Below, piece by piece: positions 37,079 through 53,655 of a DNA stretch of 64,000 nt (positions are counted from its first letter, which is position 1; every line of letters begins with the position of its first letter). Location: positions 1-64,000 of the forward strand of contig LNED01000013.1 in the NCBI GenBank assembly GCA_001464915.1, read 5' to 3'. The position numbers and the translations under genes were made by a program. Source of the DNA: Sphingomonadales bacterium Ga0077531. GTDB lineage: Bacteria; Pseudomonadota; Alphaproteobacteria; Sphingomonadales; Sphingomonadaceae. A model generated the notes under the pieces. That model had not been told where the DNA came from. It was given only the letters and a program-made list of their open reading frames with translations, and ran no database searches.

Positions 37079-37311
37079 TTATTGCTTTCTCGATTCTTGA
37101 GAACGACGCTGGCGGCAATCGCTACAACGCCAAGCGCGAGGGGAACAAATCCGATGGGCGAATGCCATTCCTTGAACGCTGTGCAGGGGCCTTCCAGCAG
37201 ATCAACCGGCTTCATGCCGCAGCGAAAAACATAGGACTTTAGCGGTGAGGTCAGGAAGCCCGCGAAGACCAAAGCTACGCCGAAAATTTGCAAACTTCGC
37301 GGAAATGTCAC
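37075..37311 (-). CDS. Small two-helix membrane protein
   Basis: About 78 residues, two hydrophobic helices ([18 protein letters not shown] and [19 protein letters not shown]) and two cysteines (FRCGMK, GPCTAF). The long ORF-track version reads through a palindromic repeat and the scpA end and cannot be right. I propose a GTG start at 37311 with GAAGGG nine bases upstream; that GAAGGG belongs to the edge of the repeat. The stop overlaps bioB (ATGA). Function unknown. Confidence 0.6.
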
Positions 37312-37320
37312 GGCGCGCAC

Positions 37321-37440
37321 CCCTTCGTCATTGCGAGGAGCCGCAGGCGACGCGGCAATCCAGTTTCTGCCGTGGCCACCTGCGTCTAGGTCAGGAGCTG
37401 GATTGCTTCGCCTTCGGCTCGCAATGACGAGGAAGTAGAC
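37321..37440. repeat. Palindromic intergenic repeat, type 1
   Basis: Two arms, CGTCATTGCGAGGAGCCGCA... and its imperfect reverse complement ending ...CTCGCAATGACG, separated by about 50 bases, between scpA and the small membrane gene. This resembles the 'cattgcgag...caatccag' repeats scattered in many sphingomonad genomes, which are palindromic and non-coding. The inner parts GGCAATCCAG/CTGGATTGC match as well. Confidence 0.8.
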
Positions 37441-37441
37441 G

Positions 37442-39595
37442 CTACTCCGCCGCCTCGTCCAGCCCTTCGCCGAGTGGTGGCATGTTGTGCCCCAACAGCA
37501 CGAGGATATCCGCCGCGCACTCCACCACATTTGAGCCGGGGCCATAGATCCCATGCACCCCCGCCTCGCGCAGGTAGTCGTAGTCCTGCGGCGGGATCAC
37601 GCCGCCCGCGGTGACCTTGATATCGCCGCGCCCGGCTTCGCGCAGCAGGCGGATCAGCTCGGGGATCAGGGTCTTGTGGCCTGCCGCCAATGACGACGCG
37701 CCGACGACGTCGACGTCGTGTTCAAGCGCCATGGCGACGGATTCCTCGGGAGTCTGGAACAGCGGGCCGGAGATCACCTCGAAACCCATGTCACCGAACG
37801 CGCTCGCGATCACATTGGCGCCGCGATCATGCCCATCCTGCCCCATCTTGGCGACCATGATCCGGGGCGCGCGGCCCAAGCGGCGGCCCACGGCCTCGAC
37901 GCCGTCCAACACCTGCGCCCAGCGGCGGTCGAATTCATAGGCGCTGGCATAGACGCCGCTGACCGGCGCGGGGGTGGCATCGTGACGGCCGAACACCTCT
38001 TCCATCGCCGAAGAAATCTCGCCGAGGGTGGCATCGTGGCGCGCGGCATCGACTGCCAGCGCCAAAACATTCGCACCGTCTGCACAGCCCGCCGTTAACG
38101 CCGCCAGCGCCGCGCGGCACGCCGCCTCGTTACGCCCTTCGCGCACCTTGGCGAGGCGTGCGATCTGCCCAGTGCGCACCTTCTGGTTGTCGATATCCAG
38201 AGTATCCATCGGGTCTTCGCTGTCTTTGCGGTACTTGTTGACCCCGACGATCACCGTCTCGCCCTTGTCGATCCCGGTCTGCTTTTCCGCCGCCGCACGC
38301 TCGATCGCGGCCTTGGGCGCGCCGGTGGCGACATAGGCGGTCATGCCGCCTGCTGCATCGACCTCGGCCATCATCGCTTCGGCTTCGGCCACCAAGGTCG
38401 CGGTCAGCGCCTCGATATAGTGCGAGCCGCCGAGCGGATCGACGACGTTGCAGATGCCGCTTTCCTCTTGCAGCACCAACTGTGTGTTGCGCGCGATGCG
38501 GGCCGAGAAATCGGTGGGGAGCGCGATCGCCTCATCCAGCGCATTGGTGTGGAGCGACTGGGTGCCGCCCAGCACCGCCGCCATTGCCTCCACCGTGGTG
38601 CGGATGACGTTGTTGTAGGGGTCTTGTTCTTGCAAGCTCACGCCCGACGTCTGGCAGTGGGTGCGCAGCATCTTGGAGCGTTCGTCCTTCGCCCCGAGAT
38701 CGTCCATCACCTTGTACCACAGCGTGCGCGCGGCGCGCAGTTTGGCGATCTCCATGAAGAAGTTCATGCCGATGCCGAAGAAGAAGCTGAGGCGGCCTGC
38801 GAAAGCGTCGATATCCAGCCCCGCGGCCATCGCGCGGCTCGCATATTCCTTACCATCGGCGATGGTGAAGGCCAGTTCCTGCACCGCGGTCGCCCCGGCT
38901 TCGTGCATGTGGTAGCCGCTGATCGAAATGCTATTGAATTTCGGCATGTTGGCCGAGGTATATGCGATGATGTCCGAGATAATCCGCATCGAAGGTTCGG
39001 GCGGGTAGATATAGGTGTTGCGGACCATGAACTCCTTGAGGATGTCGTTCTGGATCGTGCCTTCCAGCTTGTCCTGCGACACGCCCTGACGTTCCGCCGC
39101 GACGATGAAGAACGCCAGCACCGGGATCACCGCGCCGTTCATCGTCATGGAAACGCTCATGGAATCCAAGGGGATCTGGTCGAACAGGATCTGCATGTCA
39201 GCGACCGTATCGATCGCCACCCCCGCCTTGCCGACATCGCCGACCACGCGCGGGTGGTCAGAGTCGTAGCCGCGGTGGGTGGCGAGATCGAAGGCGACGC
39301 TGAGGCCCTTCTGTCCCATCGCCAGATTGCGCCGGTAAAACGCATTCGATTCCTCGGCGGTGGAGAAGCCCGCATATTGCCGGATCGTCCACGGACGGCC
39401 CGCATACATCGAAGCCTTCACCCCGCGCGTGAAGGGTGCGAAACCGGGCAAGCCGGGGTCAAAGCCTTCGTGATCTTCAATGGTATACAGCGGTTTGACC
39501 GCGATACCTTCGGGCGTGTGCCACGTAAGATCGCGGCCCTTCACCTCCTTGTCGGCGAGGGTGTTCCAGTCGGTGAGAGTCGGTTTTTGGGTCAT
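37442..39595 (-). CDS. scpA: Methylmalonyl-CoA mutase
   Basis: 717 residues, a single-chain B12 enzyme that turns methylmalonyl-CoA into succinyl-CoA. The N-terminal barrel has [44 protein letters not shown] with the substrate-binding [24 protein letters not shown]-like region (seen as [19 protein letters not shown]). The C-terminal B12 domain has [22 protein letters not shown] with the DxHxxG cobalt ligand and [16 protein letters not shown] take the ATG at 39595 ([10 protein letters not shown]); an ATG four codons upstream is possible and neither has a strong ribosome binding site. Confidence 0.97.
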
Positions 39596-39609
39596 GTCGG
39601 GTACCATAT

Positions 39610-39687
39610 CCGTTCGTGTCGAGCGAAGTCGAGACACCGCGCGGGGTATCTCGACTGCGCGCTTCGCGCTCCGCTCGATATGAACGG
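39610..39687. repeat. Palindromic intergenic repeat, type 2, upstream of scpA
   Basis: CCGTTCGTGTCGAGCGAAGTCGAGACACC and, about 15 bases later, its imperfect reverse complement GGTATCTCGACTGCGC...CTCGATATGAACGG. It occupies the gap between scpA and the PaaG-like gene. The 'gtcgagcgaagtcgaga' core is another repeat family common in sphingomonads. Confidence 0.8.
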
Positions 39688-39700
39688 AGGTGGTGGGGGT

Positions 39701-40486
39701 TTACTCCCCCTTGAATTCCGGTTTGCGCTTTTGCAGGAACGACATCCCGCCCTCCATCGCATCAGCCGTCGCGCCTGCTACCCGCTGCGCTTCGGCTTCG
39801 GCCAACAGCACCATTTGCAGGTTGGTGTCGAGCGCGGTGGCCAGATTGCGCTTCATCTGGGCGTAGGCGATGGTCGGGCCATTCGCCAGTTTGGTCGCCA
39901 GTGCGCGGGCTTCGGTCATCAGGTCGGCATCATCGACGCACTTGTAGATCAGGCCCCATTCCTCGGCCTGTTCACCAGAGATTTTCTCGCCCAGCATCAT
40001 CATCCGGGTCGCGCGCGCACGGCCAATCGCGCGGGCGAGCAGCCAGGTCGATCCGCCATCGGGCACCAGCCCGATATTGACGAAGGCTTGCAGGAAGTAG
40101 GCGCTCTTGCCAGCAATGGTGAAGTCCGCCGCCAGCGCGAGGCTGCATCCCACGCCCGCCGCCGGGCCATTCACGGCGCAGATCACCGGCACATTCGCGC
40201 GGATCAGCTGGCTGATGGCGGGGTTATAGTGATTGATCAGCGCCTCGTGACTGCCACCCTTCCCGCCGAGCGCCGAGCCGCTGCCGCGTGCCGAAAGGTC
40301 GGCGCCCGAACAAAAGCCCTTGCCCTCGCCGGTAATCAGCACCGCGCGCGCGTCTCCAAGGTCATAGAACGCCTGCCCCAACTCGTCCGCCATCTGCGGC
40401 GGCATGGCGTTGAGCCGCTCGGGCCGGTTCAGGGTAATGGTGAGCAGCGGGCCGTCACGTTCGACGCGAATGGTTTCGTAGGACAT
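39701..40486 (-). CDS. Enoyl-CoA hydratase/isomerase, PaaG-like
   Basis: 261 residues of the crotonase fold: NRPERLNAMPPQMADEL, the oxyanion CSGADLSARG, and VNGPAAGVGCSLALAADF. The late IGLVPDGGSTWLLARAIGRARATRMM, with Asp in place of the hydratase Glu, is the pattern of PaaG-type isomerases (epoxyphenylacetyl-CoA or double-bond isomerases). It may act in breakdown of aromatic or branched chains that end in propionyl-CoA, but its substrate is unknown. The gene lies between mce and scpA in the block, separated from both by palindromic repeats. Confidence 0.88.
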   Translation of the reverse strand: MSYETIRVERDGPLLTITLNRPERLNAMPPQMADELGQAFYDLGDARAVLITGEGKGFCSGADLSARGSGSALGGKGGSHEALINHYNPAISQLIRANVPVICAVNGPAAGVGCSLALAADFTIAGKSAYFLQAFVNIGLVPDGGSTWLLARAIGRARATRMMMLGEKISGEQAEEWGLIYKCVDDADLMTEARALATKLANGPTIAYAQMKRNLATALDTNLQMVLLAEAEAQRVAGATADAMEGGMSFLQKRKPEFKGE

Positions 40487-40575: not shown

Positions 40576-41028
40576 TTAATCAGACCAGTGGGTGCCATCT
40601 TTGGGCGTTTCCATGATTTCGGTAAGCATGCCGCCCATGTCCTTGGGATGGACGAAAAAGATAGGGGTGCCGTGCGCGCCGATCCGTGTGGGGCCGAGGA
40701 TGCGCTTGCCGAGCGCCTCAAATTCCGAGCGCGCTTCGGCGATATCGGGCACTTCAAAGCATAGATGATGCTGGCCGCCCAAGGGGTTCTTGGCGATGAA
40801 GCCAGCGAGCGTGCTGTCCGGCCCGAGCGGTTCGACCAGCTCAATCTGCGTGCCATTCATCGCGCCATCCGCACCGGGGGTGTCGACGAAGCAGACCTTC
40901 ACGCCCTGTTCGGGCAGGTCGAAGGGCGTGTGGATCTTGGTCGCGCCCATGACGTCGCGGTAGAACGCGATCGAGTCCGCGATGGAGGGCGTGGCGACCC
41001 CGATGTGGTTGAGACGGCCGAGTTTCAT
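40576..41028 (-). CDS. mce: Methylmalonyl-CoA epimerase
   Basis: 150 residues of the vicinal-oxygen-chelate fold. LNHIGVATPSIADSIAFYRDVMGA at the N-terminus has the first metal-binding His; QHHLCFEVPDIAEAR holds the second; the C-terminal VHPKDMGGMLTEIMETPK carries the final ligand. It interconverts the S and R forms of methylmalonyl-CoA between the carboxylase and the mutase. It starts nine bases after the AT-rich ORF's stop; the TAGGA ribosome binding site contains that gene's stop codon, so translation is coupled. Confidence 0.95.
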   Translation of the reverse strand: MKLGRLNHIGVATPSIADSIAFYRDVMGATKIHTPFDLPEQGVKVCFVDTPGADGAMNGTQIELVEPLGPDSTLAGFIAKNPLGGQHHLCFEVPDIAEARSEFEALGKRILGPTRIGAHGTPIFFVHPKDMGGMLTEIMETPKDGTHWSD

Positions 41029-41037
41029 GTTGAAATC

Positions 41038-41826
41038 CTACGATAAGAGGGCGGTCACAGTAGTCGAACCATCGGCAAGGGCAGAGACCGCCCCATATGC
41101 ACGTAGCGCCCAGTCAGCTCTGTCAGTTTGCTCTTTGACGATGTCGAGGACCGAAAGCGTTCTCACCACTGTGGCCTTGCATTTTGAAAGGATCGCCTTC
41201 TGAAGCTCATCACCTCCATCGTCGACTATATTAGCCCCTTCAAGCGCCAAATAGGCTTGAATTACATCTCGCAAGCCCTCTAGAACGTATCCACTACCAA
41301 CCCATTCAAGCCTCTCTAGTCGAAATATAAACCGCGCAAGTCCATCAATTAGAGCCTGACGAATAAAACTCTTTTCGTCAGATTGCAGATCAATAAGCCA
41401 ACCAAATAAATCATTGACATCTTGTAAAATCTCTTCTCGCTCTTCTTTAGTCAATTTATGATAAGAGACATTTTCTCGAATTTGGCTGGATAGCATCTTA
41501 AGTACTGTCGCATTTGCACCGGAAACAGTCATCCGAAGCTGATTTATGTCTTGGTCAAGCACTTTCGGGTTGGCGAAAACAGCACGGATCGCCTTCAAAC
41601 TCCTAATAGCATCTTCCATGACATCTTGATCAAGCGGTAGTTTTTTGACTTCAGAAATGACTAAATCCGAACGATCAATAATTTCGAAAATAATCGAAAA
41701 CAAAGATGACGACCAAGGCTCTACATTTGCCCTAGACGTTAGCCGTGAGACAATTTTTTCGTTAGGTTCTTCAGATAGAAGCGCAAGTGTTTCTACCAGT
41801 TCTCGTGCGGGATCTGTCAGTGCCAT
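41038..41826 (-). CDS. AT-rich unknown gene inside the propionate operon
   Basis: 262 residues, no signal peptide, mostly helical by composition (KMLSSQIRENVSYHKLTKEEREEILQDVNDLFGWLIDL), no motif or domain that I recognise. By hand count 41341-41460 is 34% GC (41 of 120) against 58% (35 of 60) in pccB at 42481-42540, and it uses AT-ending codons unlike its neighbours, so it probably came from outside. Yet it is fitted precisely: six bases after the pccB stop with the stop-overlapping GTGAGGTAG region as its ribosome binding site, and nine before mce. It is intact, without frameshift. Role unknown: an accessory cargo gene is the best guess. Confidence 0.8.
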   Translation of the reverse strand: MALTDPARELVETLALLSEEPNEKIVSRLTSRANVEPWSSSLFSIIFEIIDRSDLVISEVKKLPLDQDVMEDAIRSLKAIRAVFANPKVLDQDINQLRMTVSGANATVLKMLSSQIRENVSYHKLTKEEREEILQDVNDLFGWLIDLQSDEKSFIRQALIDGLARFIFRLERLEWVGSGYVLEGLRDVIQAYLALEGANIVDDGGDELQKAILSKCKATVVRTLSVLDIVKEQTDRADWALRAYGAVSALADGSTTVTALLS

Positions 41827-41832
41827 ACTACC

Positions 41833-43365
41833 TCACAGCGGAATATTGTCATGCTTCTTCCAAGGGTTCTCCAACTGCTTCGTCCGCAGCTTGCGTAGCC
41901 CCAGCGCAATCCGCCGCCGCGTCGAGTGCGGGTGGATCACCTCGTCAATATACCCGCGCGACGCCGCCACGAAGGGATTGGCAAACCGGTCTTCGTATTC
42001 CTTGGTGCGCTCGGCGATCTTGGCCGGGTCGTCCTTTTCCTGCCGGAAGATGATCTCCACCGCGCCCTTTGCGCCCATCACCGCGATTTCCGCTGTGGGC
42101 CAGGCGTAGTTCAAATCGCCGCGCAGGTGCTTGGACGCCATCACGTCGTACGCCCCGCCATAGGCCTTGCGGGTGATGACGGTGATTTTAGGCACGGTCG
42201 CCTCGGCATAGGCGAACAGCAGCTTCGCGCCGTGCTTGATGATCCCGCCCAATTCTTGGCTCGTGCCCGGAAGGAAGCCGGGGACGTCGACGAAGGTCAG
42301 GATCGGGATGTCGAACGCATCGCAGAACCGCACGAACCGCGCGGCTTTCTTCGATGAATTGATGTCGAGGCAGCCTGCCAACACCATCGGCTGGTTTGCC
42401 ACCACGCCCACGGTGCGGCCCTCCACGCGGCCAAAGCCGCACAGGATATTGCCTGCATGCATCGGCTGAATTTCGAAGAAATCGCCCTCGTCCAGCACCT
42501 TGGCGATGACTTCGTGCATGTCATAGGGCTGGTTGGCGTTGTCCGGGATCAACGTGTCGAGGCTGTTGTCGATCCGGTCCCACGCGTCGCCGGTGGGCAG
42601 AACGGGAGCTTCGTCGCGGTTCGACAAAGGAAGGAAATCAAAGAACCGCCGGGTCGCCAGCAGCGCCTCGATGTCGTTTTCATACGCGAGGTCGGCCACA
42701 GAAGTCTTGGTGGTGTGGGTGATCGCGCCGCCCAATTCTTCCTGCGTCACGACTTCGTTGGTGACGGTCTTCACCACATCCGGCCCAGTGACGAACATGT
42801 ACGAGCTGTCCTTCACCATGAAGATGAAGTCGGTCATCGCCGGGCTGTACACCGCCCCGCCCGCACACGGCCCCATGATCAGGCTGATCTGCGGCACCAC
42901 GCCGCTGGCGAGCACATTGCGCTGGAACACCTCGGCATAGCCGCCAAGGCTCGCCACGCCCTCCTGAATCCGCGCCCCGCCCGAATCGTTCAATCCGATC
43001 ACCGGCGCACCGACCTTCATGGCGGTGTCCATCACCTTGCAGATTTTCTCGGCATGGCGTTTCGAAAGGCTGCCGCCGAACACCGTGAAATCTTGGCTGA
43101 AGACATAGACCAAGCGCCCATTGATGGTGCCGCTGCCCGTTACCACCCCGTCACCCGGAATGCGCTGGGTTTCCATGCCGAAATCATTGCAGTCGTGCTC
43201 AACATAGGCGTCGACTTCTTCGAAGCTGCCTTCGTCGAGCAGCACGTCGAGCCGTTCGCGCGCGGTCAGTTTGCCCTTGGCGTGCTGGGCTTCGATGCGC
43301 TTGGCCCCGCCGCCCATGCGGGCAGCTTCGCGGCGGCGTTCCATTTCGGCGATATTGGCGGACAA
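41833..43365 (-). CDS. pccB: Propionyl-CoA carboxylase beta subunit (carboxyltransferase)
   Basis: 510 residues, the usual PccB size. [10 protein letters not shown]...[87 protein letters not shown] and the C-terminal [36 protein letters not shown] are all present. It accepts the carboxyl group from biotin on PccA and gives methylmalonyl-CoA. The start is a TTG at 43365 (AGGGGAA upstream, family-like [17 protein letters not shown]); the next ATG is seven codons in. It heads the block; the plus-strand oxidoreductase begins about 100 bases away. Confidence 0.96.
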
Positions 43366-52697: not shown

Positions 52698-52820
52698 ACG
52701 CCTCAGCTTAGCCCGGATCTGAACCAAAACCTGCCGTTCGGCTAGCGACCCCGAAGCAGACATTTGCGTCTTCCCAAAATGCCAGCACGTATCTGCTCTA
52801 TAATGCTGGAGAAAAACGCT
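52698..52820. other. Spacer before the FISUMP gene
   Basis: No gene. It contains CTGCCGTTCGGCTAGCGACC followed by CCGAAGCAGACATT (52731-52764), which loosely resembles the start of the spacer on the other side of the FISUMP gene (CTGACGTTCCGGATTCCACC, 53517-53550) and 'gcagacatt' strings seen in intergenic parts of sphingomonad genomes. It could be a degenerate insertion boundary. Confidence 0.35.
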
Positions 52821-53501
52821 GTGGTTCACGTGACCAAAATGGCCCGAATGCTGGCCGCAACTTTTCTGCTGGTTTCGCCGACAGTGGCTCAAACATCGAT
52901 CACGAGCACGCCCGGCAATCCTGATCCAACGCCCATCATCGAAAGTGTGAAAATCGGCACGCAAGTGTGGATGCGGGAGAACTACGCAGGTACGCGCTTT
53001 CGCAACGGCGATCCGATTGCGCTGCTGACCGATGATTCTACTTGGGCCGAGGCAGGGCGAAACGGAGTGCCGGCATATACGACCTATTCCAATCAGATGC
53101 CTCCACCAGCCAAGTGGGGGCTGCTCTACAACTTCGCGGCCGTTACCGATGAACGTGGCATATGCCCGGAAGGTTGGCGTGTCCCAGACAATCGCGACTG
53201 GCTCGTGCTTGAAGATTTCCTTGGTGGCGGAGCGCAAGCCGCAAAGGCATTGAAAGCTACTGAAGGCTGGCCCGGAAGATACGCAGGGTCGGACAGCACC
53301 GGCTTTGGGGCACTTCCGGCTGGCTGGCGAACGCAAGAAGGCATCTTTTATCTAGCCGGACGCATCGGCTATTTCTGGACCAGCGAAAGATCACCGGACG
53401 GGACTGTCATGTCCCATATGGTTTTCGATGTCGAACGACCGATTTTCAGGATTGGCTATGATCCTGGGATGGGCCAATCTTTAAGATGTATCGCCGAGTA
53501 A
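52821..53501 (+). CDS. Secreted FISUMP-domain protein
   Basis: About 226 residues. A signal peptide (MLAATFLLVSPTVAQ) precedes one FISUMP domain (Fibrobacter succinogenes major paralogous domain): IGTQVWMRENYAGTRFRNGD, WGLLYNFAAVTDERGICPEGWRVP, DNRDWLVLEDFLGG, DSTGFGALPAGWR, and FWTSE with a final SLRCIAE. The domain is common in Fibrobacteres and Bacteroidetes cell-surface proteins and rare in alphaproteobacteria, so transfer is likely. Function of the domain is unknown. Start is uncertain: I use the GTG at 52821 with GGAGA eight bases upstream; the ATGs at 52803 and 52839 are alternatives. Confidence 0.82.
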   Translation: MVHVTKMARMLAATFLLVSPTVAQTSITSTPGNPDPTPIIESVKIGTQVWMRENYAGTRFRNGDPIALLTDDSTWAEAGRNGVPAYTTYSNQMPPPAKWGLLYNFAAVTDERGICPEGWRVPDNRDWLVLEDFLGGGAQAAKALKATEGWPGRYAGSDSTGFGALPAGWRTQEGIFYLAGRIGYFWTSERSPDGTVMSHMVFDVERPIFRIGYDPGMGQSLRCIAE

Positions 53502-53655
53502 TCTGACCGGCGAAAACTGACGTTCCGGATTCCACCCATCAGCGGCCATGAGCGACGATCTTCCGCAATCCCGTAAGCTGACCTGCGTCTTCGCTGCTCG
53601 TAATGGAGAGGCTCTATCGCCCCGTGCTTGACACCGCGCGACGAGGGGTTTGCAA

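Follow-up and report, generated by a model that had tools for sequence, protein, structure and literature searches.

In the DNA analysed here, a 64,000-nucleotide stretch from Sphingomonadales bacterium Ga0077531 (hereafter the window), the propionate operon carries an AT-rich cargo gene between pccB and mce (Table 1). The open reading frame is intact, with 262 codons and an ATG start, and is separated by exactly 6 nt from the pccB stop and by 9 nt from the mce ATG. In gene sense the junctions read CTG TGA GGTAGT ATG on the pccB side and TCG TAG GATTTCAAC ATG on the mce side, where the TAG stop is overlapped by the Shine-Dalgarno (SD)-like motif of mce. These details agree with the initial annotation, which had described an intact frame with gaps of six and nine bases and a stop codon inside the ribosome-binding site of mce. 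A single weak promoter-like match lies at the start of the frame, and such matches were no more frequent there than in shuffled sequence.

Table 1. Genes and features at and around the pccB-mce junction, in window positions.
Feature	Position	Strand	Remarks
Cargo gene, 262 aa, AT-rich	41038..41826	-	Member of a provirus-associated, predicted all-helical family without a curated model
pccB, propionyl-CoA carboxylase beta chain	41833..43365	-	Upstream flank of the slot; Pfam carboxyl transferase
mce, methylmalonyl-CoA epimerase, glyoxalase fold	40576..41028	-	Downstream flank of the slot; Pfam glyoxalase_4
SD-like GAGG of the cargo gene	41831..41834	-	Overlaps the pccB stop codon; direct sequence reading
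SD-like AGGA of mce	41036..41039	-	Overlaps the cargo stop TAG; direct sequence reading
Variable slot pccB-mce	41029..41832	n/a	804 nt in the window; 9-1195 nt in relatives
Enoyl-CoA hydratase (ECH) of the operon	39701..40486	-	Pfam; mce-ECH junction is a low-variation control
Methylmalonyl-CoA mutase (scpA/mutA type)	37442..39637	-	Pfam; junction with ECH is an unoccupied control

The composition of the cargo gene is foreign to its surroundings. Its GC content is 44.6% overall and 33% in the lowest 150-nt piece, which fits the 34% first counted for part of the frame; the 58% first given for pccB is too low, the entire gene standing at 61.8%. Third-position GC (GC3) is 39%, versus 80-82% in pccB, mce, ECH and scpA, and no 789-nt stretch of the window is poorer in GC than the cargo frame (0.44; mean 0.626, sd 0.034; a departure of about 5 sd). 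In the window the slot contains no integrase, transposase or tRNA, and no integrase was found in the propionate operon. Additionally, no convincing target-site duplication or inverted repeats were seen at the ends of the insert, and no Rfam element or flanking repeat was found there.

As modelled, the occupant is a soluble all-alpha protein belonging to a provirus-associated family. Family members have about 260 residues and share the conserved motifs TDPA-E, WS, DFIRQALI[DE]GL and AY. Two AlphaFold models (pLDDT 77, pTM 0.72; pLDDT 71, pTM 0.65) are all-helical and place nearly identical helices, with a low-confidence C-terminal tail and without a transmembrane segment, in keeping with the helical character first read from the translation. 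A membrane protein was ruled out, as no 19-residue window exceeds KD 1.4. The first impression that the protein matches nothing known was borne out in the collections searched: Pfam, NCBIfam and PHROGs returned only sub-threshold, chance-level matches for the window frame; PADLOC, searched for described anti-phage defence families, matched neither the window protein nor four homologues; family profiles A1 and A8 found nothing in a PDB sequence search; and fold searches with the two models against PDB, and with one of them also against BFVD, gave no match at E<=0.001. The best viral fold match, A0A8S5QGN6 in BFVD, lies above that cut-off (E 0.09, TM 0.38). TruC, GEP5, DUF1759 and GapR were each considered as the identity of the family and rejected as chance-level matches to one member only.

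Close relatives do not all carry the gene at this position. Among 114 same-genus genomes it stands between pccB and mce only in the window's own, and in none of the other 113. One of nine Blastomonas genomes, that of Blastomonas (Sphingomonas) ursincola KR-99, has a 52%-identical gene in the identical slot; between the two copies dN is 0.47 and dS is saturated, so that dN/dS is unusable. In a tree of 20 family sequences the two slot copies form a 100/100 clade, and the copies of genomes G558 and G050, which lie in a second slot, located to the era side of topA, form a 100/98 clade. The relative in G050, a congener, is 40-42% identical across its 3' part and is divided between two contigs; we read it as interrupted by an insertion sequence because both contig ends bear the inverted sequence GTGAGGAACTGTCC. 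Searches of 401 genomes of the family and 401 of the order gave isolated, scattered matches. More distant relatives, with 25-42% identity to the window protein, are sporadic in alphaproteobacteria, including contigs of Caulobacter, Mesorhizobium and Aureimonas, and tblastn against plasmid and phage record collections returned no match.

At least four family copies are damaged: that of G050 by the insertion sequence, one adjoining a transposase-like gene (G138), one with an in-frame stop (G649) and one that has lost its N-terminal part (Aureimonas jatrophae); the loci concerned are L002/L003, L008, L044 and L096. A fifth copy, in G458, is incomplete where its contig ends. Given these damaged copies, the family gene appears dispensable, and the damage hints at either cost or dispensability.

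Homologues occur in six distinct IMG/VR proviral contigs of 25-41 kb, embedded among phage genes and adjoining those for terminase large or small subunit, portal, endolysin, cI-type repressor or tape-measure protein (PHROGs or Pfam). In these contigs the homologue is a lone gene without fixed position and is more AT-rich than its surroundings. This is the pattern of a prophage moron, a lone cargo gene between phage structural genes, and it bears out the cargo gene proposed in the initial annotation. The window copy departs from a moron in lying outside any provirus and behind a 6-nt gap too small for a promoter of its own, and no moron of matching sequence or fold was present in the libraries searched. 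It also resembles the ORFans of phage or integrative-element origin (Cortez et al. 2009, PMC2718499), being compositionally atypical, without a known family and with homologues in proviruses, but it differs from them in standing alone inside an operon rather than within a cluster of atypical genes. The provirus-borne relatives, the absence from 113 congeners and the other genes that fill the slot elsewhere support the view that the gene is foreign to the propionate operon.

Elsewhere, homologues neighbour two DUF2971 genes, one DUF4238 gene, one GmrSD N-terminal domain and one SMC/AAA ATPase, a weak hint of a defence neighbourhood. Judged by this company, prophage-encoded interference with competing phages is our leading, if tentative, candidate for the ancestral role of the family; an anti-phage role of the window protein itself is plausible.

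The slot that holds the gene is highly variable. Comparison was confined to the GTDB family, because outside it mce is not adjacent to pccB; several of the genomes used are drafts. Across 30 same-genus genomes the junction spans 9-1195 nt and nearly every species has a different content: orphans of 83, 95, 108, 133, 173 and 221 codons, small membrane proteins, CopG-like genes, a thiolase, an OsmC-like gene, GIY-YIG endonuclease genes within repeats, or almost nothing, five slots of 9-132 nt being without a long frame. Some of these slots hold repeats or small frames that may not be genes. In five relatives (slots L018, L029, L032, L033 and L034) the GIY-YIG genes are flanked by GTCATTGCGAGCGTAGCGAAGCAATCCAG-type repeats and apparently form a small mobile unit.

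Among the 25 same-genus genomes with 20-kb regions, 21 have an occupied slot (>=180 nt), with 13 mutually unrelated groups, a count that varies with the threshold, here no mutual tblastx similarity at E 1e-4. On a pccB+mce tree of 39 genomes, many of whose forks are weakly supported, the occupant changed at least 29 times, and identical occupants return in non-sister tips, a pattern that old vertical inheritance followed by many losses could also produce. Conserved flanks thus enclose diverse, unrelated contents. The suggestion to compare related junctions was well placed, as other, unrelated genes fill the slot; the 'stable site' that the initial annotation saw does not stand, since contents turn over at nearly every tip. 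We consider it probable that in the window genus and Blastomonas the pccB-mce junction is an intra-operon gene-turnover hotspot that keeps its inserts compatible with mce translation, and that the window occupant is prophage-type cargo.

Occupants are positioned against both flanking genes far more often than expected. A frame of at least 60 codons starts between -17 and +30 of the pccB stop in 22 of 29 occupied slots (8.0±2.4 in dinucleotide shuffles that kept the pccB and mce flanks), and in 19 of 29 (5.5±2.2) such a frame stops no more than 40 nt from the mce start. A single frame bridges both ends in 12 of 29 (0.8±0.9), the other 17 having no single bridging frame. The flanks themselves offer such signals: pccB typically ends ATGACAATATTCCGCTGTGA, so that one start codon (ATG) lies at -17 and another (GTG) shares bases with the TGA stop; mce in turn opens with ATGAAA, whose ATGA contains a stop for a frame arriving in the overlapping register. 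Because the shuffles retain those flanks, the excess goes beyond the built-in starts and stops. These signals, together with the many occupants that are small singletons without a family match, would also suit inserts that are mainly bridges, short and in many cases formed de novo, and kept not for their product but because they let ribosomes pass from pccB on to mce. We regard this as rather unlikely: several occupants were clearly acquired and have a life elsewhere (the 262-aa family, the thiolase, the OsmC-like gene and GIY-YIG), and the five slots of 9-132 nt manage without a long frame.

Slots of 94 nt occur in two congeners, one Blastomonas and G159, which represents a third genus. They encode a membrane micro-protein of 33 residues with a single transmembrane segment (VSKRGIL...FMHGDPI[QE]), joined to its neighbours at both ends as GTGA...ATGA (loci L024, L012, L131 and L134). 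The micro-ORF and its flanks have diverged to much the same extent; old vertical descent would fit this at least as well as exchange, and the micro-protein is a candidate early occupant of the slot. The cargo gene might likewise have belonged to the operon since the common ancestor of the window genus and Blastomonas, passing down vertically and disappearing from most lineages. A micro-ORF common to three genera at this slot speaks for such an origin, as do the equal position of the Blastomonas copy and the fully supported clade of the two. We nevertheless judge it unlikely, as the gene is present in only one of 114 same-genus and one of nine Blastomonas genomes, near relatives hold other, unrelated genes, a GC3 of 39% has not shifted to the host value, and 52% identity is far below that of the flanks.

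In a 30-kb regional control, pccB-mce was the most group-diverse of 22 neighbouring junctions. Among the other 21, scpA-bioB had 8 groups, the junction of era with a response-regulator gene 5, and the remaining 19 between 0 and 3; the two neighbouring intra-operon junctions had 2 and 0. The era junction (window 52698-53655, convergent genes) is a second variable slot; all 14 of the 14 relatives compared have it filled, with 5 unrelated groups between them, and in the window it contains a Fib_succ_major (PF09603) protein at 52764-53501. It is within this topA-era interval that G558 and G050 carry their 262-aa family members. A third variable junction (window 37079-37441) separates the methylmalonyl-CoA mutase gene from one of BATS/radical-SAM (bioB) type and is occupied in 16 of 17 genomes by 8 unrelated groups.

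Ordinary accessory insertion, in which an orphan landed by chance at a site that is nothing special, could draw on these two further variable junctions within 15 kb, and foreign and orphan genes are known to enter operons. It is nonetheless improbable given 13 unrelated groups in 25 genomes, the constancy of most neighbouring junctions and the excess over shuffles of frames that abut both flanks. A present function of the 262-aa protein in propionate metabolism, as a regulator or scaffold of PccB or Mce, would suit its position and likely co-translation with both genes, but is very hard to credit when nearly all relatives that keep the operon lack it and its own relatives reside in phages.

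If the junction is a turnover hotspot, foreign or orphan genes would settle between two conserved neighbours that point in the same direction, and homologous recombination within the conserved flanking genes, pccB and mce, would be their most likely route of entry. We favour this route because no integrase, target duplication, tRNA or repeat was found at the window insert. Inserts would be retained only where ribosomes still reach mce, and such a requirement would lead occupants to begin at the stop codon of pccB or just past it, and to finish where mce starts. The window occupant probably came from a prophage as moron-type cargo and is now presumably expressed together with pccB and the rest of the propionate operon.

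Hotspots of horizontal transfer that lack an integrase and lie between core genes have been described, with entry by homologous recombination in the flanks proposed (Oliveira et al. 2017, PMC5635113). The pccB-mce slot resembles them in that unrelated accessory genes replace one another rapidly between two conserved genes, with no mobile element to be recognised. It differs in lying inside one operon, in usually holding one or two small genes, and in that most of its occupants directly adjoin, or overlap with, at least one of the two genes beside them. A further reading, which we put forward as doubtful, is that the junction acts as a port for gene birth and gene capture: the fixed starts at the pccB end and the stop at the mce start would cause nearly any inserted frame to be translated in connection with its neighbours, and selection for the translation of mce would hold the frame open until a useful function was found.

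How foreign and orphan genes join operons is an open question that is usually inferred from single cases. In related bacteria the pccB-mce slot amounts to about forty natural repeats of one event, the flanks staying constant while the occupants differ widely, so that entry route, translation coupling and retention can be compared directly. The family found here, new, provirus-associated and of unknown fold, is available for functional tests, and the junction lends itself to studying how operons take in new genes.
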